DNA from: Nereocystis luetkeana
Lineage: Eukaryota > Sar > Phaeophyceae > Laminariales > Laminariaceae
DNA: 64,000 nucleotides
Reading direction: 5' to 3'
NCBI GenBank assembly: GCA_031213475.1
Contig: JARUPZ010000030.1
Span: 6,565,661-6,629,660, forward strand
Made by a program: the position numbers and the translations under genes. Below, piece by piece: positions 3,045 to 57,829 of this stretch (positions are counted from its first letter, which is position 1; every line of letters starts with the position of its first letter). The notes below the pieces were generated by a model. The model ran no database searches. It had not been told where the DNA came from and was given only the letters and a program-made list of their open reading frames with translations.

Positions 3045-3141
3045 TTAACCCTTTTAGAACTGCAGTCTCATTTTGGGGACAATCCAGTCAAATTTGAAGT
3101 AGTGTGTCCCCAAATCGGGACTGCGGTACTAAAAGGGTTAA
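3045..3141 (+). mobile_element. TTAA-flanked MITE (family B)
   Basis: Both flanks are intact: TTAACCCTTTTAGAAC on the left and TACTAAAAGGGTTAA on the right, 97 bp in all. Confidence 0.88.
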
Positions 3142-6510: not shown

Positions 6511-7230
6511 ATGTCGGACACCAGCGGCTGCGAATCAGGAGGACTGCCGAAGAAGAAGAGTTTCTCCTCGCGAATCACCAAGAAGCTGCATAACCCTTTC
6601 AAGCGGAGCAACTCAAGCTCCAGCAGCGATGACGACGAGAGCACCAAGTCGCCTGGGTCTGTGAAGTCTCGCAAGTCGAAGCCCAGCTTCATGCCCTCCA
6701 TGCCCATCAAGTTCTCCTCTTCTTCCCCCAGCAGTCCCGACAGCTCTGGCCCGGCCAACAGAGGGGTAACCCGGGGGGAGGCTGAACATGCCGTGGGGCC
6801 GCCCCCCCCCATCCCTCCGCGTCGGTCTGCAGCGGTGGCGTCCCCTGTGGCTGCTGGTGCTTCTGCGTCGGGAGCACCAGCCGCACCGGCAGTATCGCCG
6901 GCACGAGCAACCAGGGCCCCTGCAGGCACCACGGATACCCTCCCGTCCCAATCAGCGATGAAGCCCGCCGCCAACGCTACTGCCGCCGCTGCTGCTTCTG
7001 CTGCTACTTCTGCTGCTACTGCTGCTGCTGCTACTGCTGCTGGGGGCCAAGGATCGGGTAATGTCCCCGCGGGAGGGGCCGCTGCTGCCGCCGCCCCTAT
7101 GCCTCCGCCTCCGAGGACGGTGGCTGGCGGGCCTGTCTATGGGGCTCCATCGATCGTCATGATGGGGGTCAAGGGTGACTCGGACGCGGCCATGCTCAAC
7201 CTCAGAACGAGAGGCTTCGTTGTGCACTTG
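6511..7230 (+). CDS. Fusion gene exon 1: disordered N-terminus
   Basis: This exon encodes residues 1-240, ends in phase 0 and has donor GTGAGG at 7231. It carries a basic patch (KKKSFSSRITKK...), long Ser/Asp runs, a proline-rich PPPPIPPRR stretch that could bind SH3-type domains, and alanine runs encoded by GCT/GCC repeats. No folded domain is recognised. The opposite strand is also open for 248 codons here, which is a composition artefact. The true 5' end of the transcript is not visible. Confidence 0.75.
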
Positions 7231-10200
7231 GTGAGGAAGTTTGTTGTGTTGTGCTTGGGGGTGTGGTCGTGTGTGTGTGTGTGTTTTTATTTTTGCATGG
7301 TTTCGTGTGACATGACGGTATCGTGCTTGGTGGGCTCGTTTGGAGCGCGTTGGTGAGTGGGTTGGTGGGGTAGGTTTGGTTTATCATGAGTTGATGCTTG
7401 CTTGAGCTCTCGCAGGTTTTGGCTTTGCGCGTATGAGGTTGCTTACGGCAGGGCCTTTTTTTTTTCGTTCCTCCGTTTTTTTCGTATGTATATATTCGTT
7501 CGTTTCTTTACCCTTTTAGAACTGCAGTCCCGTTTTGGGGACAAAGCAGTCGAAAAAGGGTTGTGAAGACTGTGATTGGATGATACCGCTTTTGTTAAGC
7601 GTCTTTTGCACGACCAACGAGAAACAGTAGTACGTATACTTACAAAACGCCCTTGTCTGCTGTACAGCTACTGGAATATAGAGAGCGAGTTGGAATTATT
7701 TATAGTCCTGATAGATCTTAATAAATGAGCATTGATTTTTTATGCCAAGGCGTCATTCGAATGAAGCCGGAACATGAACCAAAAACGTATAGACATGTCT
7801 GCGGTTCCTCTTTGTTCTTGACTCATAGTGTAGTAGTGTAGTACAGGGTGAGTTTTCAATAAACTCCAGCCGTGGCATAGGGATCAATCATGTTTCCAAA
7901 TTGCGTCACGGCGATATTTCAATGAAACCTTCACATTGCAGTAGGGGCTACCCCGACGTAAGGGAGGAGGTGTGGTACAGACCGAAAACACCTCTCTTTA
8001 CTAGCCTTCTCTCTGATGCACAGTGGAAATGTACAGCTTTTCGAGTGTGGGCGGGTTCAGCCGATTTGCCCTGTCTTTGTTAGCTGTACTACTCTCTTGG
8101 CGTGTCCTCTCGTAGGTCGGGGTACCATACCACTGCTGTATCCAGAAACGTGCATACCCGCCTGCAACTCATCTTTCTCGTCTCACAATCCGCCCTCCAC
8201 CGGCGCTTGTCAGGCCATGCTCCACGAGGATGTGGTGCCTCCGACGATGACGATGGTGCTGGGCCTGGGGCCTAAGCTCATGGTCAAATCTGCCGTGGAA
8301 CAGAACCTGCCGACCAGGGCTAGGGGGGATTACACGTCGGGCGAGGTGTCGCAGCTTTGCGCCGACGCGGTCCATGTCATTATGCGCTCCGGCGTCTTGT
8401 ATGCTGAGGTGATAACCGCTCATAGCCGCTGGTAGGGTGACGTGGGGGCGTGTGATGGGATCATGTATCATTGTGGTTGGTTGTCGCCTCGTTGTGATTG
8501 GTTCGTGCCTCGTTGTGATTGGTTCGTGCCTCGTTGTGATTGGTTCGTGCCTTTTTGTGAATGATGCACGGCTCGTCGAGATTGGTCCGTGTTTTTTTCT
8601 GGCTGCTGTTTTGCCCTGGTGTGATTGGTACGATATGTCTTGCTGTTTCTGGGTATTGCGATGTTGTGATGGATAAATGCGTTTCTGTGAAGGAGTGATG
8701 TCTTCATGCGTGTTGCTGAGTGGTGTATGCCTGGTTGTTATTGATCCACGCCCCGTTGCAGTTGGTCCGCACGAATACGGCGGAGCGTTGCCGGCATCTC
8801 CAACATTATGTCCTCCCACCCAGTAGTAGAACACTGGAGGCGTTACTGTCAGGGTGTCAAATGTGTTCTTGTAGAGAAGTTTTTGATGTGTGCCAAGAAG
8901 TTGTTTTTTTATCGCGCTGGCTGGGTCGCCGATATTGCTTTCTCAACTGCTGTATACCTGTTGCAGATTGGACGTGGAAGCGTTTGTACGTGTCTTTCTC
9001 ACGTCAACTCGTCGCTATACCGTAATCTGCGGTCACGACACAGACATGCTCCAAACATCCTGATACGGAGTGGAGGGAAAGAAAACACAATCCAAATAAT
9101 GTTGCCGATGAAGCATTGACCCGTTCTGGCCTCAAGGACTGCACTCCCATCGTGGAGACAACACACGTGGAATTAGAGCCGGATTTACAGGAAGGCACAT
9201 GTACCGTGCAGTACTAAAATACTGGATGCTCGTTTAACTCTCAGAGCCTGTCATGATGTGCGTGCTTGGTATGCTTTATTTGATTTGGGCGTGTACAGAT
9301 GACCCTTCTGCACGACAAGGCGGCGCTGGAAGGGGTGGCGAATGCGGGCTACAAGGAGGCCCCGGCCGCGGTCAACTCGTACTTCGGACCCTACGTTGGG
9401 ATGTACTTCGAGTGGTTGGGGTTCTACACCAAGTGAGAGAGAGAAGTTATTTTATGCAACGGAATAGGCGACGGAAGGAATGGATATAACGAATAAGAGC
9501 AGCGTGTAGACGTGTCCCTCCTTGCTTCTTGTTTCATTTTTCGCCGGGGGTGAAGGTGATGTGACGCAGTCCGTGTGTTGGGCTTTGCTTCTGGCTTCGT
9601 GTGTCCTTCCGCCGACGGACCAAGCTTCGGAATGGATGGATTGCAGGAGAGCACCGTCTAGGCGTGTCCTTTGTTGCGTGTTGTTTGCGTCTGCCCGTGG
9701 GGAGGGAGGCGACGCAGTCAGCTTGTTAGGCTGTGTGTTCTGCCTTGGAGTGGAGGCTGTAGCAGTCAACGTCTTAGGCTGTGCTTCTGCCTCGAAGTGG
9801 AGACTGTAGCAGTCAGTGCTGGTTTTGCTCCTGCCATGGGGGGGAAGCCGACGCAGTCAGTGTTGCTTTAGGCCGCGAGAGTCGTGGGCGACTCGACTTA
9901 CTGACGCCTGTGGATGGTGTTTGCTGTCAACGTTGTCTCCGTTTTGTTGGTGAACGAAGCAGCCTCTATATGGCGCACGCATTGTACGATTTTGTTGCGA
10001 GCGAACGCGACTATCCAATTTACCCGCAGCCTAAAAAATGTAGGGTGCTCTTCTTAAATTGCAGTAGCATACCAAGCACGTGGGCACGTGTGTACATACT
10101 ACTGTAGATTCCGTCCGTCCTCCGACCGCCATGTCTAGTTTCGAATACTTACACTGTGGTTGAAAAAAACTTCCGGGTTTTCAAGCAGGCAGCAAAACAG

Positions 10201-13200
10201 CTGAATAGCAGTAGAAGTCACCCAAGCAAACGGCAGAGCAGCAGAACAGTAATCGCCCACCCAAACGCATGCTAGAATGTGTATGTCGTGCCTGTCGTAT
10301 CCAGTACGATGACATGGCCTTGCATTGTCTACTCTCCTTACTGCATTGCAGTGTGCTGCAGTAGAGTACGAGTATATGTGTCGTGATTTTTACCACAGAG
10401 CTTGCACCTCTCAAGGATGAAGAAGCGGCACGGGTGCTGGGTGTGCTGGATGCCTACGGGTAGAAAGGACGGTTTCATGTAGAGAACGCACACCAGTACG
10501 TCTGTATGTATGCGTGATACTTTTTTTGGAGCCCGACTTGCACCTCTGTCAACCATTGCAGCAACACACGCAAGTTGACGACAGTCCCAAAATATCCTGC
10601 TGCGCGAGTAGCTAGGGACAGCTATATTGCTGTATACCTTTTTTGTAGACAGTAGGTATTATAGGTAATGTTTTCAGAGGGGTACAGCAGGGCAAAAATG
10701 GCCGAACATTAATGATAAGAGTCACCCAACGCCCATTCCCCAACCACCCACCACACACACACACCAACCGCTACGTTCACCGTAACCGCGATGGTGACCA
10801 ATCAGAGCCCTTGTGGTCCCCACGATCGGAGGGCTGTTCCTGTTCTTGGACCAGTGGAGGGCTGGCTCGCCGGATAGCCTGCTGCTGCCCATATATTGCG
10901 TTCTGATCATGGTGTGGACGGCGTTATTCCTGGACCTGTGGCGGCGGCGCAACAGCTCCATCGCATTCCGGTGGGGCGTGGATGGGGTGGAGGACAGGGA
11001 GCTGATGCGGATTGCGGCACTGAAGGTGCGCTGGATAGTTTTATTGTTGGGCAGTAGAGCTCGTATCTGGTACAGTCAATACCACGCGTTCGAGGAAATG
11101 GTGGGCGCGCATGCTGCCGTGTACGAGACCCCGAGAACTCCTGACTGTAGCCATGTTTTGGTTGGGGTACCAGAGCTCAGTAACAGGTAGAGTTAACCAA
11201 TGATTCGACACGTGGTTGGCGGACACTGCTGTGTACGAGGCAAATGGCCTATTTTAACGCTTCAACAACGGGTGAGTGGGTCTGATTGGCTCAGCCTTAG
11301 CCTTAGCCTTAGGGTTAGCCACGTTCGTATCGTACACCGTATACAGTCACCCTCAACCCTAGATAAGTGCCGAGAATACTCGTAGAGTACCCTCGTACGT
11401 AGACCTTACGGCTTATGTTGTCACTACGAACATTAGTTGACGCAATCTGTGCAAGAGACGAAGGCGAGTGTAGCCCTGAATAGTGAATGAATACGGCCTC
11501 ATTGGGTTGAGGATATAGGGTAAGGTTCAGGGTCAGTCGTGTTCGTAACGTCGACAGTAGCCCACAGCAGTGAGTGTCTGTCAACTATTAGTAGTTTCCG
11601 GAAAAGGTGGTGAACTAAACATTGGTTGATTGTGTGGGGGGAGGGGATAGGGATAGTGCCAACCCCTTCAGAACCGGACTCCAGTTTTAGGGACAACTTG
11701 CTTCAATGTTGACGTCGAGTATGTCGAGTATTTGACATTCGACGGTTCTAAACGGGTTGATGTTATTATTACTCTTACGGGAGACCATAATTAATAGGAC
11801 CTACCTTACACACAAAAAAAACTACCAGGTATATATTTACCTATTTTTACTATTACGGGGGACCATAGTTAATAGGACCCATGGTATACATAAAAACCTA
11901 TATATTTAATCTTTTTTGCTAACAATATTTGGTCCTATTTACTATGGTCCCCCGTAATAGTACTATTAATATTAATATATATATTTCCCTATTTTTACTA
12001 ACAATATTTGGTCCTATTCACTATGATCGCCCGTAATAGTACTATTATTAATAGTAGTTCTATTCGTATCGTCCACAGAGGTCTCCCAACCATTTTGTCG
12101 AAGAGTTGGGGATCACACTGCCCGAAGCGCAAGGAACGTTTAATATTGATACCAGGTCATTTACTACAGCTAGTTATGTTGATATTTCTCTATTGGTATT
12201 ACTATATTGATATTACTCTGTTGATATTACCACCAGGGTACATGAATTTTACTATGCGGATGGTCCTTACACGTTGGGATGGAGGGGTAAGCTCAAGCTA
12301 CCCTCGCGTCGGGTTCGGCTTTGAGCGAAGAGCCTATTACAGCTGTAGTCGGTGATCGGTGATGCAGGGGCGGGGATGAAACCGTTTTTATGTGTGTCGT
12401 CGTGTTGCAGGAGGGAGTGAAACCGTCTTCAGCTTGTTGCGGCGTTGCAGAGGTGAAACCGTTTGCTTATTATAGAGAGCCGTGAGGCTGATGCACTGCT
12501 GCAATTTTGTTCCCTGTTGGATGGGATGATGGCTGCTGTTTGTCTAAGGAGTCCCATACCGCGAGAAGCTAAAAGGACGGATGCTGAACCCTTGAGTGTT
12601 GGTTTCTGGTTGGCGATTTGATGCTTGATTGATGACGGATGCTTGATGGATATCGGTGTTTGTAGGTTGGCGCGGCAGGGGTTTCCGTTCTTCGATTTTG
12701 GCTGGCCGTATTTCTACATCTTCCACGCCTCAGGCAGATCATCTACAGATCATACAGATGATACATACCATGCCCATGTAATGATCTAGATCCTCCAAAG
12801 CAGGTTCATTCCCGATATTGTGTTGTCTACCTGATAGCTCATATTGCCGGGCTGGACCCGTATAATTACACGACCCTATGAATAGCACGTTCTTCATGTG
12901 TTGGATCTGTATTGTTTAGTATGCAGATCCTGCACCACCCCTCACAGTGGCAGTTGAGGAACTAGATGTACAGTAGATAGATCATGAGCTGTCCGACGTG
13001 TTGAGTGTTCATGAATCGTTAAGATTAAGTCACAACGTGTGGACCATATGGGCATATGCCACCTTTTCCCGCCGTACACATGCATGCCCCCGTGACTGAC
13101 TTGGTTCGGCTTGGCTTGCTTGTGCTGGTGTGTTTTCTCGGCACGTCGTCTGCCCCTACCTTGTATTCCTACCGCCCGGACCTGCTGGCCACGCTGCTCG

Positions 13201-31200: not shown

Positions 31201-34200
31201 GCGATGAGCTTACAGTGGTATTTGTTTATTTCGTTTTGTCGGCTGTGAGTTGGCTGACATGTGTTTACACTTAACTGTTATTCCTATTAAAACCTGTCGA
31301 CAACCAGCACAACCAGTGCCCGTGCCTATTGTTCCATCCTACAGAAGTAGAGAGACACAAGTTATGTGGTCACAAAACTACGCCACAGAGATACTACGTT
31401 CTTGTTCAGTAAGCAGAGTAAACAATGCAAACAATGCCATGCCATCGTATTGGATACGATAGGAACTACATGCATGGATACCTAGGGCTGACATGGATAC
31501 CTAGGTCTGTGAGTTTTAGTTGGCTGACGATTAGCTTGCCGACTATTATATAGTTAGCTGACTAGAAGTCACCGACTATTATATATTTGGCTGACTATAA
31601 GGCACCGGTTATATCATAGTTGGCTGGTTATAAGCGGCCGACTATTGTATATTTTTCTGACTGTAAGTCGCCGACTAGTTGCTACGGTAGTTGGTTATGT
31701 CTTCTTCGTCCGTTGCGTGTGGAACTTATCGGATTTCTGTGTGTTGTATCTTTTTCACGCGTTTGTTTGATAAAGATGAAAAAGTCCAGGGGCAAGTAGT
31801 TGGTTCACATCGCCAGCCAACTAGTAAGTGGTATTTTCGATCAAATCCAATCAAGGCACGTCGTAACCCAGGTTATCGTATGTGAAGTGAGTGCAGCGAG
31901 CCGACTTATTGCCCTGTTATTAGAAATGGAAGGTGCGTACCTGGTATTTTGTCGTTGATTGTTTGCTCGTCTGTGAGCGGAGTTCCCGGCCATCGGTGGA
32001 GAAGCATTTTTGACTGACGTATGCCGTATGGCAGAGACGTACTATTAGGGTCACATTCTTGTCGGAGTTTTTTTTTCCCCATTTTTTTTACATTTTTTTC
32101 GCGCACTTTTTCAATCTTCCATATTTTCCTGATTTTTTTTCCCAAGTGTGTAAAATTTAACGAACTTGATTTTTTTGCTTCTGGATAATTTCACGAATAT
32201 TGACAGAACGCCTCCGTATATTGTATATCTCCAATTATTTTCAAACTTTGGAAATTATGGAAAAAACGCCCTTGGATAAGAATGAGCGTTAACAACGCAA
32301 GGTTTTGGTGGTAGATTATTCATGCTAGGTTGATTATTTGGCTTCTGTGGCGTTCAGTATGGCGTACTATTAATAAAACCCACCCTCACATGTTTTAAGG
32401 TCATTTACAGTAGTACGGTGACACTCAAACCCATGCGCTTTCTTTGCACGGCGTTTAGTACATCATACTTTAACCTTTAACCCCATGCAGCTAAAATAGT
32501 CATAAAAGGCCCTGTCGATGTGATTAGAAGGGATTACGTTGAAATACTCATGAACGACTGCTGTGATTTCAACATCATGATTGTTATTTTATTTTATTTT
32601 CATTCACGACAATTTGCAGGCAAGTCAGACCCCTACGTCAAGATGAAGCTCGGTAGGGAACAAGTGATGAAGACCGACACCAAGAAACGGACTCTGAAGC
32701 CCAGATACGACGAGACCTTCGACCTTCTCGTCTATGAGCGCTCCGTGGAGGTAATGGTTCTATTATTAAGTTAATAGTTGATCGTGCAAGCCACTGCTGT
32801 TTTTCTGTTTATTGTGCAGTTTTTTTCGCCAAGCATCCAATTCTCTTTTGTGGCACGTAGACCTATGACAATGGAACGTGAAGTCAAAAGGTTTTCTTTC
32901 AACAACATTGCTTGCAAAGAAAAGCCGAAGATATCCTCGTACCGCCGCTGCTGTGGGGGAAAAGGGGAAACATGTTTGATTTTCTCTGTTTTTTTTTATA
33001 GCGGCTGCAGGCGGCGCAATTTGTTTTTTCTCGTTGCAAATTGGCAACACGCTGATAAAAATCAGCTCGTGCGACGATGGACGCTCGATCTCAACATAGA
33101 CTCAGCCACACGGCTAACCCGCTTGGTGTCGGGCGAGGCCAACGAGTATAGATGACGGCATCGAAGATATCAGGGGGATCCATGGTCTACAACAGTAGAG
33201 GGCGAGAGCTTGCCGGCGGAATCCTACGGTCTTCTCCCAAACCTGAAAAAAAAAATGTTTTTTGCCATTAGAGACGGATCGAGAAATGTTGTCATCTGTT
33301 TTGTGCACACCAGTGGCCAAGTGTTTCTTCCTCATACGCCTGGCCAACACGGTGACCCTAGGGCGGGTCGGAGCCCATAACAAACGCACTCACTTTAGAG
33401 TCCATGATGCAGTCGTTGGTTTTGTCAATCGATGTCTGTCGAGGACTCGGAATTTCGCCGCTTCGAACTGATCATCCGCCTGAGTATTTCTGAAGCCGAT
33501 CTTGGCCCAACATCTGCTCGAGAATTGTTTTTCTTCCGGGTTTTCCCTTAGTACCTGGTATGGAACTTCCGTTCTAAGAATCGTGCTCATAGCAAGCTGT
33601 ACCTGAAGAATTCTGGCGGGTATCTTTGGAATTCAACTTTTTGGAAACTTCGCGTTTCCATTGGCATAGGTCGTACCAGGTAGGTTTTTCGCAGGCCAAC
33701 TGGTAGTCTCGCGAATTATCGTTTGTGGTATTCTAGGTTAGGAAGGCCAACTACTATAAACCCATGTTTCTTAGTACCGATGTTTTCGCCTATTGTGGTG
33801 TGCTATGTATCACACCTCTTCTCTTTTTTGTTGATACGTTTTTGGCAGGCCAACCGCTTCGTATAGATAGCCCCTGCTTTTTGTTTGTGTGTGATGTTTT
33901 TTTCGCCCATTCTGCGGCTTTAGTCTTGCTAGGTTTGCGGCAGACCATCAGCGTGCCCCTGTTTTTTTGTGGCGTTTTTTTTCGTTGTTTTGTGCTACCT
34001 CTTGTGTGCTACGAGCGTTTCGCGGTTTACCCTAGCTACAGCAAGGGTGAACTACAGTATTAGTAGTTATGCTGCAGCTGTCCTAACTGCGGAATTGTCC
34101 CGCGGCGTCTTTTGTGTCTTACGGGTGTCGACTGTGTCTTCAGGGTGATCGTATTTATTGTATTTATTGTAGTGTATTTATTGTATACTCGTAGCAAATT

Positions 34201-37200
34201 CAACGCGAATCGACGAGGGAAGGAAGGGCTGAAGTCTCATCGCGATGAAAAATGCAATGCGCGAACCGCACGAAGTGGGGCGGGAGGAGAAGAGCCTGCT
34301 ACTGCTACTGCTGCTGTACATCACCCCGGATCTGAGTTGCGCTTACGGTATGAATAGGAGGCAGAGGTAAAAGAAGGGCGAAAATAATGTAGGAGATAAA
34401 AAAATATGATCACAAAAAAATTACAACGATCGCGCTCTGTGCTGTGCACTTGTCCCTTCCGAGTACGCCAGGTGCTACTGCTGTCGGTGTACGACAGAGA
34501 CGCTGGGCCAGGAGATGACGATTTCCTCGGCGGTTGCGAGCTGCCCCTCAGTGTGCTGCAGGCGGACGTCGAGAGCTCGCACAACATCCCCCTCTCCAAA
34601 ACCACGAGCGGCAGCCTTCTGCTCAAGGCCACGTAAGCGGAGGCCTTCATTCCAACATCGGACGTATCAGATTTATCAGTAACACGATTCCCCCATTTCA
34701 TTATACGTATTTTTCGGGGAAGATATATAGATCTATTCTTGATCTGTATGATCTGTATGATCTAGCTCATGTTTCCGCCTGGGAGCCGTATAGTGTGCAT
34801 GATTCAGGACAGGTTTCCTGCGTTGGGTCTGTACTATGGAGGTCCTGCACAACATGTCGTACCGGCAGCTTACGATCTAGATGATATATCTGTAGGTTAT
34901 CTATCTGTAGATTATCCATCTGTAGGTGATCTATATATAGATGCACTGTCTGTAGATGATCTATCTGTAGATAATCCATCTGTAGGTGGTATATGTATAG
35001 ATGCTCTGTCTGTAGATGCTCTGTCTGTAGATGCTCTATCTGTAGATGATCTGTCTGTAGACGATCGATCTATATATGATATATCTTTAGATAATCTATT
35101 TGTAGATAATCTATCTGTAGATAATCTATCTGTAGATAATCTATCTGTAGATGGTATGTCCGACCTGTATGGAGGGCTTGCAGTGTTCGGGTTCCCTATG
35201 TACCATGTCCCTCGTTTTTGTTTTTTTTTAATTCCTGAGTTGGTCCGTTCTCCCACGTGGAGGTTTTGGTTTACTTGGCTTTGCTTTGCTGCGCTCGATG
35301 TGCGCCACGTTCTTTGTTTCTACCTGGGTTGCTGTATTCATCCAACGAGCCTGTCTTGTGACAGTCTTGTGACAGTCTTGTGACAGTCTTGTGACAGTCT
35401 TGTGACAGTCTTGTGACAGTCTTGTGACAGCGGACTAGTTTGTGGAGATTGACTTATGGTGACAGCATGAAGAACATTCGCGGCAGGAAGGCGATGTGCT
35501 GGACACGGACACGGTGCTTGACAAGCAGCTCTCCATTATTCGGAGAGTTACCGCGGCCGTTACAGAAGTGGCTTTACTATGCCCAGTACCAGTAGCTGCT
35601 GCTGTCGCCACTACAGCAATAGCCCTTTCAGACAGTAGCTCTACTAAACTAGCTCCTCCAATCACCATTCCCTGCGTACAGTAGCTCCTCCAATCGCCAC
35701 TTCTTGCTTACAGCAGTAGCTCCTCCAACCACTATTTCTTCCTCCAAGCACAATTTCCTGCTTTCAATACCTCGCCCCAACCACGATTCCCTGCTCACAA
35801 CATAATCTCTTCCTCTACCACTACTTTTTTTTGTATGTGTCAGGTTTGTACCCCTCGCCAGCGGGGCCAAGCGCATGGAGCAGCCCGACGAAGACGTTAT
35901 CGTCGACGCGGGCGGTGACGAAGTGACGGACGACACAGTGGCCGGAGATGTATACCAGAACCTGTCGGCGGACGGGCAGCCGATTAAGCCCCCCAAGGCG
36001 GCGAGGGCTGCGAGGGGCCCCTCCGTTGATCCCAGTACCCTGAAGCCGGCGACTGTGCTTAACCTTTCGGACACCAGCATGGGTGTGGTCAGCGTCATGG
36101 GCATCGAGTGCAAGTGGGTCCACCTGTCCACCTGCGGAGTGCGGTGCTGCCTGCGCGTGTGCCCAGTACGGCACTGACCCAGCAGTAGTGTCTTGTCACT
36201 ACCGTACAGTAGTGTCTTCTGACTACTGTATTACGGGGGACATATATTCAATCGAATCCACGGTACACACAAAAACGTGTACGTTTCGCTATTTTTACTA
36301 GCAGTAGTTGGTCCTACTTACTCTGGTCCCCCGTAGTAGTATCTTGTGACACTGCACGTCGTGTGTTTTGTCTCCGATGATACATTCTAACTGTGAAGAG
36401 AGTAGGGCCTTGTCACTATTCATACCCTGGTCCAAGTGAACGGCCCTTGCGGGGAACACCAGGCCCTCCGTCTTCCGCATGAAACACGCGTAGGAAACGT
36501 GGAACATATTCGATGCTGTCTGACGTCTGGTCTTTTTTTTTTTATGGTATTTGTTTTTTCCTCTTCAATCTCTTCAATCTGTACCTGGCATCCGTTGTAC
36601 GAATGGATTAAAGCGGGTCCAAACTATCTTGAGCGCAGGCGGAGCCCATCGCGGTACCGTATCTCGGTGTCAGCGCCCTAGGATGCCATCGTGTTACCTG
36701 AGCTCCATGCCACATTTTTCTCACCCCCCGCACCCCTCCCGCCACCCGCCCCGCCTGCTGCGGTATGCTCTTTGCTCCTACCGTGGCGGATTTGTGGACT
36801 GGACTTCGTCTGCTGCTGTATCACGTCTATGCCGTGCTTGCTTTATAGGGGGGTCAAGCCGGGAGACCGGTACGTATCGGTGATCTGTGGCAACACCAAG
36901 CGCAAGACGGCGGTGACAGAGAACATGGCTAATTTCGCCTGTCCTGAGGTGTTCCACTTCCTTGTCAAGGGAGCCAAATCGGCCGTGGTCGAGATCCTGC
37001 TGAAGGAGAAGGAGAGCATCGGCAACGACAAGTGCTTGGGATCGTTCAAGGTATGGCAACGGGCGTGGGAACGGTTCTTGGAACGATATACACACGTTCT
37101 GCTGTCTCGTTCTACACCACCTAAAAATGAAAAAAATGGCAGGTTGCGTTAAGTTAGTTACTGCTGTATTCCAGCCAAGTCATGCATGGTTGGGAGGCCA

Positions 37201-39982
37201 CGCCGATGCGATGTATCGGGTGCGGGATGGTGTCTGGCACGGTGATCGCACACTAATGTTCATGCAATAGTGGCCTGTTGCACATGCACTACTCTAAGGA
37301 GGGCTGTATGGACGTTGCCCCGGCTTGGACTTACCTTGACCCTACGGTGATCGCACACTAATGTTCATGCAATAGTGGCCTGTTGCACATGCACTACTCT
37401 AAGGAGGGCTGTATGGACGTTGCCCCGGCTTGGACATACCTTGACCCTTTTACAGTATTAGTAGTACTGCAGTCCCGTTTTGGGAACAAATTTCTTATTT
37501 TTTCACTGGTTTGTCCCCTTAACGGGACTGCCGTACTAAAAGGGTGGGTGCGATCGTTTTTCAGCGCTCGGTTTTTCCAGAACGGGAAAAAGTTGCCACC
37601 CGGCCGCCTGGGATTGTTCTCGGATTTTTCTGAGATTTTTCTGAGATTTTTCTCGGAATGAAGCTGTCATGAGGATTTAGTGTGGACTATCAATCAACGA
37701 AATACAAATTACACCACTTTAGAGAGCACCCTTGGTACCGTTGGCGACAAAACGAGCGCTAAGAAACAATCGCACCTCTGTGCGAATTCAACGCTGCTCT
37801 TCACGGGTTTTCACTGTAAGAGGCTTTAATAGGGTATCAGCCATACCAGGTAGATATCACTTTTTGGCCAAAACATTTATGACTATTGATAACGGGGCTT
37901 TTCAACTGCGAAAAATTACCCAATGCCACTGGGAATTACCCAATGTATCTGGGAGTTGCCCAATAAGGTAGCGGCATGCCTAAATCGCCCAAACGCCGAC
38001 AATATGTGTGTTATGATACTCATTATTGGAGGCTATGGGATTGATCTGACTCTCCTACGGGTTTTGCACTTTCATCAGTTTGTCTTCAGCGTGATTTTTT
38101 TGTTGACTTGATAACGGTATATAGAGCTTAAGCAGGAGAGAGAAAATACTCGCAAATATTAGGTGCTACTATCACATTTAACCCTTATTACGGGGGGGCA
38201 TATTAATAGTAAATAGGACCAAAAAATGTCATTAACAATAGTCAAGTATGTAGGTTTTTGTGTGTACCGTAGGTCCTATTTACTATGGCCCCCCGTAATA
38301 ATAGGACTACAGTCCTGTTTTGGGGACACACTACTTGGAATTAGAGTAGTCTGTCCCCAAAACGGGACTGCAGTCCTAATGGGGTTAAACCCTTGAAAAC
38401 CCTAGGCCCGACCGTCTGGGATTGTTCTCGGATTTTTCCGAGATTTTTCTTGGAATGAAGCTGTTATGAGGATTTAGTGTGGGCTATCAATCGAGGCTGA
38501 GGTCAGCTCGTAAACAACGTCCTTCGATCGGTGTCTGGCAATGGTGAACGTGCAGTTTTGTTGATACAGCCGTTGCCTGTTGCGCCTTTCTATGGCACAC
38601 GCGATGCTGTGCTGTGCTGTGCTGTGCTGTGCTGTGCTGTGCTGTGCTGTGCAGGTGAACGTGGCCGAAGTGATGGCGAACTTTGACCAGCTTGATGGCG
38701 AGTGGGACCTTACGGGAGAGAAGGCGAAGGGAGCCATCAAGATGCGCCTCCAGTGAGATAACAATACATCAGTGTTCGTAGGTTATCATGTCTGATTGAG
38801 CTTTGCCGACGGCATGCAATATATTTATATACCCGTTTGTCCAACGCCAATTGAGATAAATGCTGTCTGATAGATACGTGGATGGATATTACTCATGTGT
38901 CAAATAGGGTATTGCTGTTGTGTGTAGTAGGATAATGCTGTCGTCTGATTGGTCGATCGAAACTACCCATCTGTCCATCCTCGCGTAAAATGTGACAATA
39001 GGATGTTTGCGATACCCCAATTTGATCGGGTTACAAAAACATTTCGAAACGGACAAAACATGATGAGCTGATTGGTTAGTGGATGTGAAGTTGCTCCGTT
39101 TGCTTACCAACCCACAGAGTTACCCAACTCAAGAAAACTTTCTGGAGGCTAAAAACGTCATTTTGGTAGCTTTTTCCCGCAGCAATGATGGCTTGGTGGC
39201 TTGGGATCGCTCTTATATTCCGGTCGGAAACAGTCTACGAGAAACCGAACCCAACCAATTATTTACAAACACCCGATGTTGTGGTCTGATTGGTAGATGC
39301 GTGTCACCAATTTTCCCAACCTGAAGCGGGACATGAGATATGATGGTGATGTTGCCTGATTGGTGGATGCTGGATTGATATTTTACCCATTTGTCCAACG
39401 GCCTGGACGGTGCAGTCTGGTGCAATATCCAAGTTGGCCGACGAAATCGTTTTTACTTTCGTTTTATGTATCCTTTCGCTGCTGTAGAATGTGCCGTGTG
39501 TGGCGCCTGTTTGCGCGCTGTTGACCTGTTGCTTTGTCCAATCTATTGTTTACAATATATAGAGCTACGTACCCATACAAGAGAGGTGCTTAGCTTGCTC
39601 GTCGCTTCGCTGTACAGAGTGGCTTCATCTTGCTTGTTGCTTATCGGTGCGATACCTAACCCTAACCCTGTCGTCTGACATCGTCTACTCTAGTATAGTC
39701 TAGTATAGTCTAGTCTAGTCTAGTCTAGCAGCGCGATCTCTCTAATCTTCGTTCAACCGTTTTCGCTGTATGCATGAACAACCAGCTGCAGCTGTAAATA
39801 GTCTACCGGTAGCTGGTGACGGGGCCCTCATGTTTTTCGCGTGCCATTGGTTATTATTAGCAATATGATGTCAACAGTTACTGTCACAGCAAGCCTTGTT
39901 GGACACGGCGATGATCGAAGGCGTTTTTTCTTTTTCGTGATGCAGATGGTCGGGGAGGGCGGGCGACGACGGCACCAGCTGA
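6511..39982 (+). CDS. TMEM16 (anoctamin) - extended-synaptotagmin fusion protein, 25 exons, ~1396 aa
   Basis: Joining exons at GT(GC)-AG sites gives one open frame. Residues 1-240 are a low-complexity Ser/Pro/Ala-rich cytosolic N-terminus; 241-349 form the anoctamin N-terminal region ending in the hallmark YFGPYVGMYFEWLGFYTK; 350-757 hold ten predicted membrane helices; 757-815 are a charged linker; about 816-860 are a two-pass hydrophobic hairpin like the ER anchor of E-Syts; about 885-1075 are an SMP lipid-transfer domain; 1083-1195 are C2A and about 1262-1396 are C2B. TMEM16 proteins are Ca2+-gated scramblases or channels. SMP-C2 proteins (E-Syt, tricalbin) shuttle glycerolipids at ER contact sites. 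A Ca2+-controlled scramblase and transfer machine in one chain is my inference. The Ca2+ ligand pairs E615/E618 (TM7) and E647/D651 (TM8) match TMEM16A E702/E705 and E734/D738 in spacing. The start at 6511 is chosen because it has an A at -3 and opens the basic, Ser-rich exon; an in-frame ATG at 6037 is less likely. A chance alignment of two separate genes is unlikely because phases match at every junction, but no transcript has been seen. Confidence 0.85.
7508..7563 (+). mobile_element. Family B MITE, partly deleted
   Basis: The left arm CCCTTTTAGAACTGCAGTCC and GTTTTGGGGACAAA are intact, but the right arm is reduced to AAAAAGGGTTG. Intron 1. Confidence 0.7.
8214..8408 (+). CDS. Fusion gene exon 2: anoctamin N-terminal cytosolic region
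   Basis: Acceptor TTGTCAG precedes the exon, which is phase 0 at both ends with donor GTGATA. It encodes 65 residues (241-305) from AMLHEDVVPP to MRSGVLYAE. The sequence is not diagnostic alone, but it splices in frame into exon 3, which is clearly anoctamin. The weak donor makes the 3' boundary a little uncertain. Confidence 0.6.
8471..8560 (+). repeat. 21-bp tandem repeat, intron 2
   Basis: About four units of TTGTGATTGGTTCGTGCCTCG, starting about 60 bp after the exon 2 donor. Confidence 0.85.
9299..9432 (+). CDS. Fusion gene exon 3: anoctamin YFGxxxxxYFxWLGFYT motif
   Basis: Acceptor TGTACAG is followed by MTLLHDKAALEG. The exon carries SYFGPYVGMYFEWLGFYT, the signature just before TM1 in TMEM16 proteins. 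It ends in phase 2 at donor GTGAGA (AA plus A from exon 4 makes Lys). Confidence 0.85.
9690..9865 (+). repeat. ~50-bp imperfect tandem repeat, intron 3
   Basis: Units contain CAGTCAxxxTxxTTAGGCTGTG...TGCCTxGxAGTGGAGxCTGTAG, three to four diverged copies. Confidence 0.6.
10268..10492 (-). repeat. Dispersed repeat R, copy 3
   Basis: GTATGTCGTGCCTGTCGTAT to GGGTAGAAAGGACGGTTTCA, more diverged and with an inserted block around 10340. Intron 3. Confidence 0.7.
10806..11025 (+). CDS. Fusion gene exon 4: TM1 and TM2
   Basis: The exon starts with the single base that completes the split Lys codon, then ALVVPTIGGLFLFLDQW (TM1) and LLLPIYCVLIMVWTALFLDLW (TM2). It continues with RRRNSSIAFRWGV, matching the WxRxxxxxAxxWG region after TM2 in anoctamins. 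Donor AAG/GTGCGC, phase 0. Confidence 0.85.
11658..11760 (+). mobile_element. Diverged family B-like MITE
   Basis: CCAACCCCTTCAGAACCGGA and GACGGTTCTAAACGGGTTGA keep the family B termini with many changes and a different centre. Intron 4. Confidence 0.55.
11773..12038 (+). mobile_element. TA-flanked MITE, interrupted by a second copy
   Basis: Outer copy: a TTACGGGAGACCATAATTAA-like left end and GGTCCTATTCACTATGATCGC-like right end, split by an inner copy at 11851-11959. Family A has inverted ends of about 27 bp and a TA target duplication, as in Tc1/mariner-derived MITEs. Lies in intron 4. Confidence 0.8.
11851..11959 (+). mobile_element. TA-flanked MITE (family A), inner nested copy
   Basis: A complete 109-bp copy, TATTACGGGGGACC to GGTCCCCCGTAATA, sitting inside an older family member. 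The centre carries TACATAAAAACCTATATATT, shared by most copies. Confidence 0.85.
13226..13351 (+). CDS. Fusion gene exon 5: TM3
   Basis: Encodes EGEFAPSPAGKLCM, equivalent to the RPEFxGxxxxSPVTG loop of anoctamins, then a membrane helix (TVPIILAAIYVVIRVMLY). Donor GAG/GTAAGA is near consensus. The acceptor could be the AG at 13221 or at 13224, which adds or removes one Lys; both keep phase 0. Confidence 0.75.
15428..15543 (-). mobile_element. TA-flanked MITE (family A)
   Basis: Intron 5 copy in reverse orientation: the central AAAACC...TATAT block reads as its complement. Ends are TTACGGGGGGCCATAA and GGTCCCCCGTAA between TA dinucleotides. Confidence 0.82.
15834..15992 (+). CDS. Fusion gene exon 6: TM4
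   Basis: Acceptor CACGCAG, phase 0 at both ends, donor AAG/GTGAAT. Encodes YYPLLLYSGVPIVASFAYDF (TM4) and LNEFEDHPTAVRKKNALIIK. The NEFEDHPT segment matches the conserved TEFEDSLT loop before TM5 of TMEM16 proteins. Confidence 0.88.
16427..16535 (+). mobile_element. TA-flanked MITE (family A)
   Basis: Intron 6 copy with near-perfect ends (TTACGGGGGACCATAATTTA and TAACTATGGTCCCCCGTAA) between TA dinucleotides. Confidence 0.88.
17611..17799 (+). CDS. Fusion gene exon 7: TM5 and TM6
   Basis: The acceptor follows a CT/CA-rich tract. Encodes MFAFQFVNSYCALLYVGFW (the conserved FxFQFVNxYxSLFYIAF helix), then a five-Met run from an ATG repeat and TM6 (VKQFVAQIVEMY). E563 aligns with the TM6 calcium ligand E654 of TMEM16A. 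The partner Asn (N650) appears to be Ala559 or Gln560. Donor AAC/GTGAGA. Confidence 0.9.
17909..18015 (+). mobile_element. TA-flanked MITE (family A)
   Basis: Intron 7 copy, about 100 bp after exon 7. The left end is mutated (TGACGGGGGACC) and the right end has lost two C residues. Confidence 0.85.
18755..18868 (+). CDS. Fusion gene exon 8: TM6-TM7 loop, ends at a GC donor
   Basis: Acceptor CTTCAG. Encodes an acidic loop and ESEYLEM, which opens TM7 and contributes E615 and E618, the spacing of TMEM16A E702/E705. No GT is available where homology demands the boundary. The exon ends at GATG/GCAAGT, a good GC-AG donor, in phase 0. Confidence 0.85.
19673..19801 (+). CDS. Fusion gene exon 9: TM7-TM8 with calcium-site residues
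   Basis: Acceptor CAAGCAG. Encodes VLQFGYISMFFVVFPLAPFF then AILNNVWEFKLD, the most conserved anoctamin block. E647 and D651 sit 29 and 33 residues after E618, exactly as E734/D738 follow E705 in TMEM16A. Ends KTRRPQ at donor CAG/GTGAGC, phase 0. Confidence 0.92.
19846..20135 (+). repeat. 22-bp minisatellite, intron 9
   Basis: Units of CGTCGAATGCTGAATGTGAAAC, about seven near-identical copies, then degenerate ones running right up to the exon 10 acceptor. All three frames on the opposite strand are open in the repeat, giving false long ORFs. Confidence 0.9.
20141..20302 (+). CDS. Fusion gene exon 10: TM9
   Basis: Acceptor AATGCAG lies just after a 22-bp minisatellite. Encodes SIGAWQLCLEMIGVVACLSN, matching the xDIGxWxxxLxxI region and TM9, then a short luminal segment. 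Donor AAG/GTGAGG; a second in-frame donor 18 bp on (AAG/GTATTA) could add six residues. Confidence 0.85.
20464..20502 (+). CDS. Fusion gene exon 11: 39-nt micro-exon
   Basis: Bounded by acceptor CAGTAG and donor AAG/GTGAGT. Encodes EARSSYHAKLAKK in phase 0. Joined to exon 12 this gives YHAKLAKKVVVVVVAEHV, which parallels the conserved WHVLAARLAFVIVFEHV entry into TM10. Without it that segment is missing. The upstream CAG three bases earlier would bring an in-frame TAG, so the TAG acceptor is required. Confidence 0.75.
22289..22453 (+). CDS. Fusion gene exon 12: TM10 and start of linker
   Basis: Acceptor CTGTCAG, donor CCG/GTGAGT, phase 0. Encodes VVVVVVAEHVLFLLRAIFSG (TM10) and LVDKVPRAVREAQ, equivalent to the PDVPxxV motif that closes the anoctamin domain, followed by a charged helix (VQQKQERREFRRL). 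Confidence 0.9.
22550..23105 (+). repeat. Degenerate (TTACCGCTG)n-type repeat, intron 12
   Basis: A stretch of about 550 bp built from CCGCTGTTG/TTACCGCTG variants. It fills most of the intron and gives an artefactual 198-codon ORF. Confidence 0.75.
23220..23371 (+). CDS. Fusion gene exon 13: linker and first half of E-Syt-like hairpin
   Basis: Acceptor CACCCAG. Encodes a Ser/Ala/Lys linker, then WHLPLAVIPFLVAW, the first arm of a hydrophobic hairpin. Ends in phase 2 at donor GTCAGT (TG plus G gives Trp). This exon bridges the two ancestral modules. Confidence 0.8.
23485..23790 (-). mobile_element. SINE (minus) split by a family B MITE
   Basis: AACTCAGATCCCGAGGTCAC and GGCTCTCCTCCCCCACTACG on one side of the MITE, CCCTCGTCGACGG and TACCCACGCTACTCGGCGCT on the other, all complement of the SINE body. 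Intron 13. Confidence 0.7.
23577..23673 (+). mobile_element. TTAA-flanked MITE (family B) inside a SINE
   Basis: TTAACCATTTTAGAACCGCA to CGGTCCTAAAAGGGTAAA, with long matching arms. It splits a minus-strand SINE (about 23485-23790), so it is younger than that SINE. Intron 13. Confidence 0.85.
24215..24332 (+). CDS. Fusion gene exon 14: second half of membrane hairpin
   Basis: Acceptor CCTCCAG. Encodes LELSALWVLPTAFVFVSYL then QHRKDSSDKALALGIVKDPQ. With exon 13 this makes a two-pass hairpin directly before the SMP domain, as in extended synaptotagmins. The donor CAG/GTCTCA is weak, but the frame and homology support it. Confidence 0.75.
25068..25157 (+). CDS. Fusion gene exon 15: SMP domain start
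   Basis: Acceptor GGGGCAG, donor AAG/GTACGA, phase 0. Encodes FLPPWYTDSEVERVDWMNKT, matching the xxExVEWLNxxL opening of SMP domains. Confidence 0.88.
25567..25701 (+). CDS. Fusion gene exon 16: SMP domain
   Basis: Acceptor ATACAG, donor AAG/GTGCGC, phase 0. Encodes the amphipathic segment TEDLFDTTIQPILDSYRPPG and LGFRKVSLGTIPPK, the conserved FxLGxxPP strand of SMP domains. Confidence 0.88.
25727..25824 (+). mobile_element. TTAA-flanked MITE (family B)
   Basis: Complete copy with TTAA on both sides, inserted only 25 bp after the exon 16 donor in intron 16. Confidence 0.88.
25850..26140 (+). repeat. Degenerate TGCTGCATGTGGTGCGTG-type repeat, intron 16
   Basis: A low-complexity TG/GC-rich array following the family B MITE; produces a false 152-codon ORF. 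Confidence 0.65.
26950..27100 (-). mobile_element. SINE fragment, minus strand
   Basis: GGGTCACATAGCCCCC, CTTCGCGAGAAGAGTTCAGC and CCCCGTCGACTCGCG match the SINE body in reverse. No head. Intron 16. Confidence 0.65.
27300..27445 (+). repeat. ~56-bp tandem duplication, intron 16
   Basis: CATGCTCATGGGTGACCGAT and ACCAGTACGATATAT recur two to three times, ending about 60 bp before the exon 17 acceptor. Confidence 0.75.
27504..27689 (+). CDS. Fusion gene exon 17: SMP domain
   Basis: Acceptor TGCGCAG, donor GTG/GTGAGG, phase 0. Encodes IVGVRALETKDDTVVLDIDI, RWAGNAEFVVEAG and RMRVELTPLVPV, matching the IxGV, WxGNxxI and GxxRVxLxPL strands of SMP domains. Confidence 0.92.
27690..28330 (+). repeat. 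~75-bp satellite-like array starting at the exon 17 donor
   Basis: Units share GACCGCxGTTTGACCTCTTG and ACTGACCGCCCCATA. The first unit includes the exon 17 donor itself. Six or more diverged units; intron 17. Confidence 0.75.
28903..28966 (+). mobile_element. Truncated family A MITE (right half)
   Basis: Only the right half is present, from GGTATATATTTAACCATTTT to GGTCCCCCGTAATA. It abuts a C20-type homopolymer and TTTTTCTTCA that replaced the left half. Intron 17. Confidence 0.75.
29554..29766 (+). CDS. Fusion gene exon 18: SMP domain end
   Basis: Acceptor GCCACAG, donor ATC/GTGAGT, phase 0. Encodes FPCFGAVVLTFMEKPFINF, then NVVSDLIKNIITDLMVFPAK, the closing strands and helix of an SMP domain, ending DGQDLI. 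The last about 30 bases plus donor are duplicated at 30037. Confidence 0.9.
29880..29988 (+). mobile_element. TA-flanked MITE (family A)
   Basis: Full-length copy in intron 18. It separates exon 18 from the partial duplicate of that exon's end at 30037. Confidence 0.87.
30035..30170 (+). repeat. Partial duplication of exon 18 end and donor
   Basis: CCCATTCTTGACGGCCAGGA, CCTCATCGTAAGTTGTTTAT repeats the end of exon 18 and its donor at 29740-29778, followed by the same GATAGATCATC...GATCATCTAGA tract. A family A MITE lies between the copies. Confidence 0.85.
30928..30973 (+). CDS. Fusion gene exon 19: C2A first strand and calcium loop 1
   Basis: A 46-nt exon behind GCTGCAG. Encodes LTLVGCDNLRAADIG plus one base of a split Gly codon. 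D1095 is the first Asp of Ca2+ loop 1. Donor GTGGGT, phase 1. Joining exon 20 restores the D-x-x-GKSDPYV signature. Confidence 0.82.
31005..31690 (+). repeat. Interspersed GTTGGCTGACTAGAAGTCGC-type repeat, intron 19
   Basis: About six units of the form GTTGGCTGACTAxAAGTCGCCGACTATTATAT, mostly at 31495-31690 with an isolated unit near 31010; repeat R lies between them. Confidence 0.65.
31278..31463 (+). repeat. Dispersed repeat R, copy 4
   Basis: Contains CTGTCGACAACCAGCACAAC, GTGGTCACAAAACTACGCCA and CATCGTATTGGATACGATAG. Same orientation as the 60-kb copy. Intron 19. Confidence 0.68.
32620..32750 (+). CDS. Fusion gene exon 20: C2A core
   Basis: Acceptor TTTGCAG, donor GAG/GTAATG. Encodes KSDPYVKMKLGREQ, a Lys-rich strand that may bind anionic lipid (DTKKRTLKP), and YDETFDLLV. 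D1101 is the second Asp of loop 1. Confidence 0.92.
34175..34400 (+). mobile_element. Diverged SINE body in intron 20
   Basis: Shares AATCGACGAGGGA, GGCTGAAGTCTCATCGCGAT and CCCCGGATCTGAGTTGCG with the SINE family. A CTGCTACTG repeat has expanded inside it, and the tRNA head is not recognisable. It lies shortly before exon 21. Confidence 0.65.
34472..34632 (+). CDS. Fusion gene exon 21: C2A calcium loop 3
   Basis: Acceptor ACGCCAG, donor GTAAGC, phase 2. Encodes VLLLSVYDRDAGPGDDDFLG. D1149, D1151 and D1157 fill the loop-3 ligand positions (0, +2, +8), so C2A keeps all five acidic ligands. Encoded on to SGSLLLKAT, the last strands. Confidence 0.9.
34875..35155 (+). repeat. 15-bp minisatellite, intron 21
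   Basis: About 18 units of CTGTAGATGATCTAT and variants. Both strands stay open through it. Confidence 0.88.
35353..35430 (+). repeat. 11-bp perfect tandem repeat, intron 21
   Basis: Seven identical units of GTCTTGTGACA. The lack of divergence suggests recent expansion. Confidence 0.92.
35844..36113 (+). CDS. Fusion gene exon 22: C2A-C2B linker and C2B first strand
   Basis: Acceptor GTGTCAG; the first base completes the Thr codon split from exon 21. Encodes FVPLASGAKRMEQPDED, a long acidic then basic linker (PPKAARAARG), and MGVVSVMGIEC, the first C2B strand. Donor GTGGGT, phase 2. Confidence 0.85.
36229..36338 (+). mobile_element. Diverged TA-flanked MITE (family A)
   Basis: Intron 22 copy with more substitutions than the others (for example ATTCAATCGAATCCACGG in the left arm), so probably an older insertion. 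Confidence 0.75.
36849..37050 (+). CDS. Fusion gene exon 23: C2B core
   Basis: Acceptor TTATAG. Encodes GVKPGDRYVSVICGNTKRKT and the strands through KCLGSFK, a clear C2 fold. Loop 1 keeps only one Asp (GDRYV). Loop 3 reads KEKESIGNDK, so Ca2+ binding is probably lost. Donor AAG/GTATGG, phase 0. Confidence 0.88.
37239..37448 (+). repeat. 105-bp tandem duplication, intron 23
   Basis: Two units starting ACGGTGATCGCACACTAATG, near-identical across their length. The second unit runs into the family B MITE at 37443. Confidence 0.9.
37443..37546 (+). mobile_element. Family B MITE, diverged flanks
   Basis: CCCTTTTACAG...ACTGCAGTCCCGTTTTGGGA on the left and GGTTTGTCCCCTTAACGGGA...CTAAAAGGG on the right. 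It abuts a 105-bp tandem duplication. Intron 23. Confidence 0.75.
38178..38388. mobile_element. TTAA-flanked MITE (family B) carrying a family A insertion
   Basis: The outer element starts TTAACCC and ends ACTGCAGTCCTAATGGGGTTAA. Its left arm is split by a family A copy at 38186-38300 flanked by TA. Located in intron 23. Confidence 0.78.
38186..38300 (-). mobile_element. Family A MITE nested in family B
   Basis: Reverse-orientation copy with TTACGGGGGGGCATA and ATGGCCCCCCGTAA ends, inserted at a TA within the CCCTTTTAGGAC arm of the host element. Confidence 0.8.
38606..38650 (+). repeat. (GCTGT)9 repeat abutting the exon 24 acceptor
   Basis: Nine perfect pentamers, then GCAG and exon 24. 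The repeat takes the place of the pyrimidine tract. Confidence 0.92.
38655..38752 (+). CDS. Fusion gene exon 24: C2B end
   Basis: The acceptor GTGCAG directly follows a nine-unit GCTGT repeat. Encodes GEWDLTGEKAKGAIKMRL plus CA. Unspliced, the frame reads Gln then TGA at 38754-38756. The CA/GTGAGA junction is a good donor that overlaps this stop, and splicing to 39946 restores the Trp expected at the end of a C2 domain. Confidence 0.8.
39946..39982 (+). CDS. Fusion gene exon 25 (probable terminal exon)
   Basis: Preceded by TTTTTTCTTTTTCGTGATGCAG-type pyrimidine tract and acceptor. It completes Gln and adds WSGRAGDDGTS before TGA at 39980. KMRLQW fits the usual final C2 strand (LxLxW). The exon is short and rests on splice signals and this one Trp, so the alternative end at 38756 remains possible. 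Confidence 0.55.
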
Positions 39983-42419: not shown

Positions 42420-44230
42420 CGCCTTAACGTCATGTTTCTGCTCGATCCCGTCCAGCTCTGGTACAGTGACATTATGATACGTCGTGACCCGTGCTTGTAC
42501 TCGAAATGAAAATGTAACACAATGTTAGGATTTGACCATACACGCACGTTATTGTGCCTAACATGCCCACAGATCGATATCCGCAGACATACCTGGTATA
42601 TATTAACATGATGACATGTTAATGCTACTGACTACGCAGCTTTAGACATAACACACTAACATAGTGTTGCCCGTAAGAGGAGTGCTAGACGTAACACCGT
42701 AACTAAACGTTACCATGTTGGCCAGCACTTCCAACACCTGACATTGAGTCACAAATAATCCAACATAACAGAACCTAGTGGCCAGCTCTACATACCACTA
42801 TTAATACCTTATTCGGACCCCTCGCCTGATTGCGTAAAGGTCGGATAACGTAATATTTAACTTACGCTAGCAACGTTACAGTCGTCTCAGCCGGCCGATA
42901 CGTAATGTTATGTCAGGATGTTAGCCTAAATGTTAACGGTGCTATTGTCCGTGAATACCAGCCTTTAACATTCCGTTACTACCTGGTACTGTGTTACAAT
43001 TACAATCAATCCGGGGCTAACATTATTATACTGAGTTGCCGTTGAGGCCGAAGTCGTTCCAACGTAATTTCGCGACGTTACCCGTGGAGTCTTGACGGGA
43101 GCTAACATGTGTTGCCTGTGTTAGTGGTATAGCGGCGTCGCGGACTAACACAACGTAGTTGTGTTGCCCAAAATCGCCGATATCCCAGTAGGGGACACCT
43201 ACCAAGATATCCCCAAGAGGGGAGGATAACATGGCATCCTCGATTAAAAAACACTTCTATGTATATTGTGAAGCCCAAAAACAGGAGATATTTAGGAGGG
43301 ATCCCGGCAAAAAAACGCCTCATTTTTCGGAAACCTCCTCACCCATCAATAACGTAATCCGTATACTGGCACGTGCGGCAGTAGCCTCCAGTTGATGTCC
43401 GATTGAGGATATGCGTTATCATGCTAACTTGTGTTATTTATACTATTAATACTATACTACCAGGTAGCTAACAGACTAACATTGTGTTATATACCTGGTA
43501 GTGTTTTATCGAACATTACGTTATCCGTTTAACGTATGTTATGCAGCTAGACTTCCGTCAACACCCAAACATAACGTTGCTCGATACGGGCTGCTGCTGC
43601 GGCTGATCGGTAGCATAATGTTAAACGTTCTATCGGCCACATACATTACCCCCTAACGTGTGTTACGATACCCACCAGGAATTCCACTAACACACTAACA
43701 TACAGCACTAGTGTTACGCAAGCGTTTAATTGGCCATGTACGTTAGCCATCGAAAGTGCCTTACGATACGTAGTAAGCAATAATTCCGCTGACACACTAA
43801 CACAACGTTACTCGCTACGGGCTGATGTCGCGATCACGGTAACGTAATGTTGACGTTTAATTGACCATGTACATCATCCCTTCAATGTGTGTTGCGATAG
43901 CCACTATTACGGGGGACCATAGTTAATAGGACCTATGATATACACAAAAAAACTATATATTTACCTATTTTTGCTGACAATATTCGGTCCTGTTTACTAT
44001 GGTCCCCCGTAATAGGAATTCCGCTAACACGCTTAAATATGCTACTCGCTGTGGAATGCCTACCCCAACACCGTGACACATAAATATATACCGCGGTCAA
44101 TACGGAATCAAGATAACACTCTAACATACTGTTACGCGATCGCCCGCCGATACCGTAACACACTGACACTATTTTATCACAAACTTCAGAAAGCAGTTAA
44201 CGCAGTGACGCAATGTTACGACTTTTTTTC
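42420..44230. repeat. Intergenic block dense in TAACGTTA-like motifs
   Basis: Words such as AACACACTAACA, GTAATGTTA, AACGTTAC and GTGTTACG recur every 20-60 bp over about 1.8 kb without a fixed period. No gene is seen. A family A MITE sits at 43905. Confidence 0.6.
43905..44014 (+). mobile_element. TA-flanked MITE (family A), intergenic
   Basis: Complete copy with intact ends, inserted in the TAACGTTA-rich intergenic block. Confidence 0.87.
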
Positions 44231-45325: not shown

Positions 45326-45329
45326 TTAT

Positions 45330-50595: not shown

Positions 50596-50623
50596 CCTAG
50601 CCGTTTGCTACCTCGTCAACATG

Positions 50624-57825: not shown

Positions 57826-57829
57826 GCCA

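Follow-up and report, generated by a model that had tools for sequence, protein, structure and literature searches.

We analysed a window of 64,000 bases from the brown alga Nereocystis luetkeana (assembly GCA_031213475.1, contig JARUPZ010000030.1, positions 6,565,661 to 6,629,660; all coordinates below are those of the window). On its + strand we found a gene of 24 exons that runs in one frame from an ATG at 6511 to a stop at 39982 and encodes a predicted protein of 1395 residues. The protein joins an anoctamin (TMEM16) domain to the parts of an extended synaptotagmin (E-Syt). The domain order is a low-complexity N-terminus, anoctamin/TMEM16, a hydrophobic hairpin-like stretch, SMP, C2A and a degenerate C2B. 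That the fusion is real is well supported by the predicted gene and by its relatives.

Gene structure and domain content

The joined 24-exon chain contained zero internal stops. Its 23 introns comprised 22 with GT-AG ends and one with GC-AG ends (after exon 8, which ends at 18868). Their lengths ranged from 339 to 2482 bases with a median of 1193, and the intron at the anoctamin/E-Syt domain junction was 766 bases long. Splice sites were scored by a leave-one-out matrix built from the gene's own sites. Four sites scored below zero, namely the acceptors of exons 5, 17 and 18 (−4.3, −1.0 and −0.1) and the donor of exon 13 (−0.9), and all four were backed by protein alignment to P0001, a relative found in EukProt. 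The sites at the fusion junction (exon 11/12) scored 8.4 and 10.5. A splice-site scan was also made for a further short exon in the gap after exon 4; such an exon was rejected, as the relatives place the start of exon 5 earlier.

The first 240 residues (exon 1, 6511..7230, opening with the ATG) are of low complexity, rich in Ser, Pro and Ala and with basic patches, and a Pfam search of the N-terminal 331 residues gave zero family matches. The motif KKKSFSSR near the N-terminus was common to the window protein, P0001 and a further relative, P0043. Exon 2 (8214..8408, residues 241-305) encodes an N-terminal domain that aligned with P0001. The anoctamin domain starts in exon 3 (9299..9432, residues 306-349) and continues through exon 4 (10806..11025, 350-423), exon 5 (13226..13351, 424-465; its position was set by the P0001 alignment), exon 6 (15834..15992, 466-518), exon 7 (17611..17799, 519-581), exon 8 (18755..18868, 582-619), exon 9 (19673..19801, 620-662) and exon 10 (20141..20302, 663-716). 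It ends in exon 11 (22289..22453, 717-771), the last residues of which, ...ASGLP, form the fusion junction. Exon 12 (23220..23371, 772-821) holds a linker (THDVW) and the first half of the hairpin-like hydrophobic stretch, and exon 13 (24215..24332, 822-861; donor gtctca) holds the second half. SMP extends from exon 14 (25068..25157, 862-891) through exon 15 (25567..25701, 892-936) and exon 16 (27504..27689, 937-998) to exon 17 (29554..29766, 999-1069). C2A occupies exon 18 (30892..30973, 1070-1096), exon 19 (32620..32750, 1097-1140) and exon 20 (34472..34632, 1141-1193). An acidic linker and the start of C2B lie in exon 21 (35844..36113, 1194-1283); C2B continues in exon 22 (36849..37050, 1284-1351) and ends in exon 23 (38655..38752, 1352-1383). 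The last exon (39946..39982) encodes a C-terminal tail, WSGRAG, in common with P0001, and the stop.

Some of these exons lie close to tandem repeats. A perfect TGCTG array at 38605-38652 makes up the acceptor region of exon 23, stopping two bases short of the exon, and changes in array length could affect the splicing of this exon. Two minisatellites are intronic, one at 19849-20073 (22-base units, ending 67 bases before exon 10) and one at 34878-35153 (15-base units).

The main Pfam run was made on an early model of 1086 residues (with 21 X; exons 1, 2 and 24 and a few residues at junctions were not yet included). In this run Anoctamin (PF04547) matched with an E-value of 4.6e-88 (296.5 bits against a cut-off of 28, profile positions 1-456 of 460), SMP_LBD (PF17047) with 2.4e-19 (70 bits against 27, positions 2-179 of 180), and C2 with 1.5e-28, in two stretches at a loose cut-off. 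When searched alone, C2A gave 2.2e-23 (82.9 bits) and C2B 1.1e-05 (26.1 bits), both against a cut-off of 22. Mapped by hand onto the final protein, the spans were about residues 330-748 for anoctamin, 879-1062 for SMP, 1078-1178 for C2A and 1276-1357 for C2B. A hydropathy peak at residues 805-841, between anoctamin and SMP, falls where an E-Syt has its hairpin; the predicted local distance difference test (pLDDT) score of the model of a relative, P0002, was mostly <50 there. A TMEM16 fold was found in the P0002 model, for which structural alignments covered mainly model residues 1-378, ahead of the SMP part. The near-full Pfam profile and this predicted fold suggest the ten anoctamin helices, P0002 itself being without the start of the domain.

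A sequence-only reading made earlier had placed the gene start at 6511 and its end at 39982, and the rebuilt model reproduced both exactly. Its claim that anoctamin, hairpin, SMP and two C2 domains join in one frame was confirmed by the 24-exon join and the P0001 alignment. It counted 24 junctions, whereas the rebuilt model has 23, and its exon numbers were one too high: exon 11 is the last of the anoctamin half, and exon 12 the first of the hairpin region. It had also described the second half as a whole E-Syt, which fits the hairpin-SMP-C2-C2 order, but C2B is degenerate.

One gene or two

Close relatives were taken as those with ≥40% identity by the search tables, in which matches were scored among about 8000 candidates sharing most words, within a length window. 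Nine were found, and the nearest named proteins came from brown algae (Ectocarpus, Hapterophycus). Of the nine, three extend across the junction; in each of these the two halves meet at one and the same residue, and linker residues to either side are conserved. P0001, an independent record of 1400 residues, aligned end to end with 978 identities in 1358 aligned residues (72%). The gaps fell in the low-complexity N-terminus, the linker (2 residues, 10 residues past the fusion junction), the stretch between C2A and C2B, and the two C-terminal residues. P0002 (Ectocarpus sp. 13, 665 residues, partial) runs from anoctamin profile position 41 into SMP and was 76% identical. P0043 (Ectocarpus sp. 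12, 818 residues, partial) runs from the start across the junction and ends with THDVWKF in the linker. These two were 98% identical in their overlap, so that they are nearly one gene seen twice. All three fused relatives are sequence records, none known to rest on a transcript.

We considered the explanation that two adjacent genes have been mistakenly joined. The name of P0001 is like that of a gene prediction, P0002 and P0043 carry a partial label, and the evidence is genomic sequence. An in-frame ATG lies 21 codons upstream of exon 12. Moreover, the other six close relatives (P0044, P0066, P0062, P0065, P0063 and P0064) are one-sided, although by themselves they decide nothing about the fusion either way. 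P0062 (Hapterophycus) begins at a Met in the linker, but it is labelled partial and lies on a contig of 4350 bases. P0063 and P0064 begin inside exon 17. P0065 (Discosporangium) and P0066 (Phaeothamnion) begin at the ATG that opens exon 15; however, their SMP profile matches begin at 45 and 23 of 180, respectively, and because the start of the profile is missing, both look cut short. At face value P0044, P0065 and P0066, which carry no partial label, are records of separate halves; we read them as probably cut-short records. The two Phaeothamnion halves, P0044 and P0066, from a genus that we take to be outside the brown algae, had 42.5 and 45.7% identity and lie on separate short contigs of 6996 and 7610 bases. 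At the aligned junction P0044 continues with VS, the translation expected of GTGAGT or GTAAGT if such a donor were left unspliced, and it may continue into a downstream exon. Relatives that consistently encode two genes, which the sequence-only reading had named as the case against it, were not seen. With every junction-spanning relative fused at one residue and the junction splice sites scoring well, the two-gene explanation is very improbable, and we rejected it.

The fusion is thus present, as far as these gene models go, in N. luetkeana, Ectocarpus and the species from which P0001 comes. In looking for fusions outside the brown algae, we saw both anoctamin and SMP labels on P0001 and P0002 only among the 42, 20 and 29 matches listed in the searches; P0043, ending in the linker, is labelled anoctamin only. 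As a separate observation, P0044 has an insertion of about 250 residues between anoctamin helices 6 and 7 relative to the window protein.

We also searched the genome (465 Mb in 1987 contigs). At least 34 anoctamin matches were obtained and were grouped by hand into about nine loci (contigs C2, C4, C18, C30, C31 and C35). Then, the 10-19 kb downstream of the other eight loci was searched in all frames with an SMP-C2A profile. As a control, this profile detected eight exon matches in the window (best 1.6e-22, weakest 0.0052), and within 10-19 kb downstream of the other eight loci there was zero SMP or C2 match, with nothing better than 2.3. Over this distance the fusion looks special to this paralogue. 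When the whole genome was searched with PF17047 there were 0 matches; this search is insensitive, since even the SMP exons of the window escaped it (0 of 14 controls detected).

Proposed function and alternatives

The acidic residues E563 (exon 7), E615 and E618 (exon 8) and E647 and D651 (exon 9) aligned with E654, E702, E705, E734 and D738 in helices 6, 7 and 8 of TMEM16A, which we take to be its Ca2+ ligands. P0001 has Asp at the E615 position, like TMEM16K. In C2A, the aspartates D1094 (exon 18), D1100 (exon 19) and D1148, D1150 and D1156 (exon 20) show synaptotagmin spacing and presumably mark the Ca2+ ligand positions. The sequence-only reading had proposed shared Ca2+ control. Because the acidic TMEM16 ligands and the five C2A aspartates are kept, such control of both halves is plausible, and both look Ca2+-responsive; C2B would be at most a Ca2+-independent binder because the C2A-type aspartates are missing from it.

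The best explanation, which we regard as moderately probable, is a single-chain lipid mover at a membrane contact site, with a scramblase joined to a lipid-transfer arm. Both termini of TMEM16 proteins and both ends of the hairpin are cytosolic, so the chain could run from TMEM16 through hairpin and SMP to C2A and C2B on the cytosolic face of a single membrane. The TMEM16 dimer would lie in the membrane of the endoplasmic reticulum (ER), beside the hairpin. When Ca2+ rises, C2A would bind the plasma membrane or another partner membrane, and the SMP tube would shuttle phospholipid between the cytosolic leaflets of the two membranes. The same rise would open the TMEM16 part and let lipid move between the leaflets of the donor membrane, an exchange that would keep transfer from draining or straining one leaflet. 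The fusion would hold scrambling and transfer at 1:1 and in place. TMEM16 scrambling, SMP transfer, the location at ER-plasma membrane contacts and the coupling of both activities are predicted properties. For the specific form, a one-chain "scramble and ship" in which Ca2+ opens the TMEM16 groove and also recruits C2A, with both lipid movements covalently coupled, we consider the chances evenly balanced.

Several points weigh against this explanation. The asparagine in the sixth transmembrane helix of TMEM16K aligns with Ala in the window protein, and C2B (exon 22) is without Ca2+-type aspartates at the C2A positions. Residues 340-520 of the P0002 model mostly had pLDDT of 34-53, with two blocks of about 67, a low confidence that covers the anoctamin end, the linker and the hairpin and their arrangement. 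The case as a whole is built on genomic sequence, which does not settle scrambling, and the TMEM16 half may be a channel only.

That last possibility can be stated more fully: the anoctamin half would be a Ca2+-activated ion channel, which the E-Syt half tethers and tunes via local lipids. TMEM16A and TMEM16B are channels, and several matches of the anoctamin half bear the names anoctamin-5 and -7. It has been reported that mammalian E-Syt1 and E-Syt2 complex with ANO1 and regulate it at ER-plasma membrane junctions, mainly via junctional phosphoinositides and phosphatidylserine (PS) (PMC11982563, available text). However, the closest solved relative of the anoctamin half is TMEM16K/ANO10 (1.8e-44), ahead of ANO1 (1.7e-26). 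TMEM16K scrambles lipid. Thus, we consider the channel explanation unlikely. The anoctamin half could also be a large part that serves chiefly to anchor the transfer arm in the ER and to dimerise it, with scrambling incidental. In yeast, transfer by Osh6/7 was barely affected when Ist2 was cut to its intrinsically disordered region and two helices (PMC13286939, available text). On the other hand, the two halves were conserved to a similar degree (anoctamin, 74-76% identity to P0001, P0002 and P0043; SMP-C2A, 70-84% to P0001, P0002, P0062, P0063 and P0064), and the anoctamin half keeps its acidic Ca2+ ligands, beyond the needs of an anchor. We therefore hold the role of a mere anchor to be quite doubtful.

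Lipid flipping by TMEM16 proteins and lipid carrying by E-Syts are usually studied in separate partner proteins. If the single-chain lipid mover is correct, the fixation and retention of such a fusion by brown algae would be independent support, from evolution, for the view that scramblase and lipid-transfer protein share a lipid stream. The fusion would also be a natural construct of fixed 1:1 ratio, allowing either half to be inactivated separately. The fusion suggests that SMP proteins, besides ORPs and bridge-like proteins, can partner a TMEM16 protein.

Surroundings in the window and known systems

Two short repeat families are dispersed in the window. One, resembling miniature inverted-repeat transposable elements, is about 100 bases long with inverted ends near CCCTTTTAGAACCGCAGTCCC ... 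GGGACTGCGGTCCTAAAAGGG; it has seven copies (1400-1501, 3044-3145, 23576-23678, 25726-25827, 37456-37552, 38296-38392 and 63740-63841), four of them in introns of the fusion gene. The other is found on both strands, mostly in introns of this gene (11843-12057, 15426-15514, 16419-16554, 17901-18036, 29872-30007, 36222-36357, 38206-38303 and 43903-44015). Inverted repeat arms at 936-1340 and 60401-60800, 59 kb apart and 87-96% complementary, may be a pair of copies of the same mobile element. Of 82 listed open frames, ten long ones on the + strand had no Pfam match at an E-value of 0.01; nine lie to the right of the gene (45268-61556) and one to the left (3389-3892). The tRNA and Rfam searches of the window gave zero matches.

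The fusion appears to be new as far as the searched literature shows, while both halves belong to known families. A TMEM16-SMP fusion was in no title or abstract start among the matches listed from full-text literature (for example 20 of 328 and 12 of 1015), a coverage that leaves out most subscription papers and preprints. SMP is not mentioned in the available parts of a survey of the anoctamin superfamily (PMC5868767), nor is "anoctamin" in those of a TULIP review (PMC5507252). A kelp transcript has been named ANO7 (PMC6742357, available text). The architecture was already visible in databases, since the P0001 record lists the Pfam domains concerned.

For the first half, human TMEM16K/anoctamin-10 (5oc9) was the best solved match, over residues 296-752. 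Its solved chain has 667 residues and, we presume, no SMP or C2 domain. For the second half, the window SMP-C2A matched extended synaptotagmin 2 (4p42) at 1.4e-38, and the predicted SMP-C2A-C2B model of a relative matched it at 1.7e-31. As in E-Syt2, a hydrophobic stretch lies ahead of SMP. However, the hairpin-like stretch of the window protein is not N-terminal, about 800 residues including the TMEM16 domain preceding it, and there are two C2 domains only. We file the protein as a fusion rather than a plain E-Syt because the TMEM16 domain precedes the hairpin-like stretch in frame. A two-C2 E-Syt is described in Trypanosoma brucei (PMC8093936, available text).

Comparable pairings of the two activities were taken from the available text of the papers cited here. 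Yeast Ist2 with Osh6/Osh7 also combines a TMEM16-like ER protein with a lipid-transfer protein at ER-plasma membrane contacts (PMC12617493, PMC13286939), but there a separate ORP is bound to a long disordered tail. The window protein has no such Osh6/7-binding C-terminal tail; hairpin, SMP, C2 and C2 follow the TMEM16 domain in the same chain instead. In vitro, scrambling by Ist2 can support continued PS transfer by Osh6, whereas first data do not suggest so in yeast (PMC12617493), and a 2026 review regards the coupling of scramblase and transfer in cells as unproven (PMC13286939). ATG2 works with the scramblases ATG9, TMEM41B and VMP1 (PMC13286939), although this is a bridge-like transfer protein with other scramblases in separate chains. 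The likeness in covalent form is to a few protist and amoebal proteins, in which a CETP/BPI-type TULIP and a PqiA-type multi-span domain place a tube and a proposed lipid permease in one chain (PMC5507252); those proteins pair the CETP/BPI family with PqiA, whereas the window protein pairs SMP with TMEM16.
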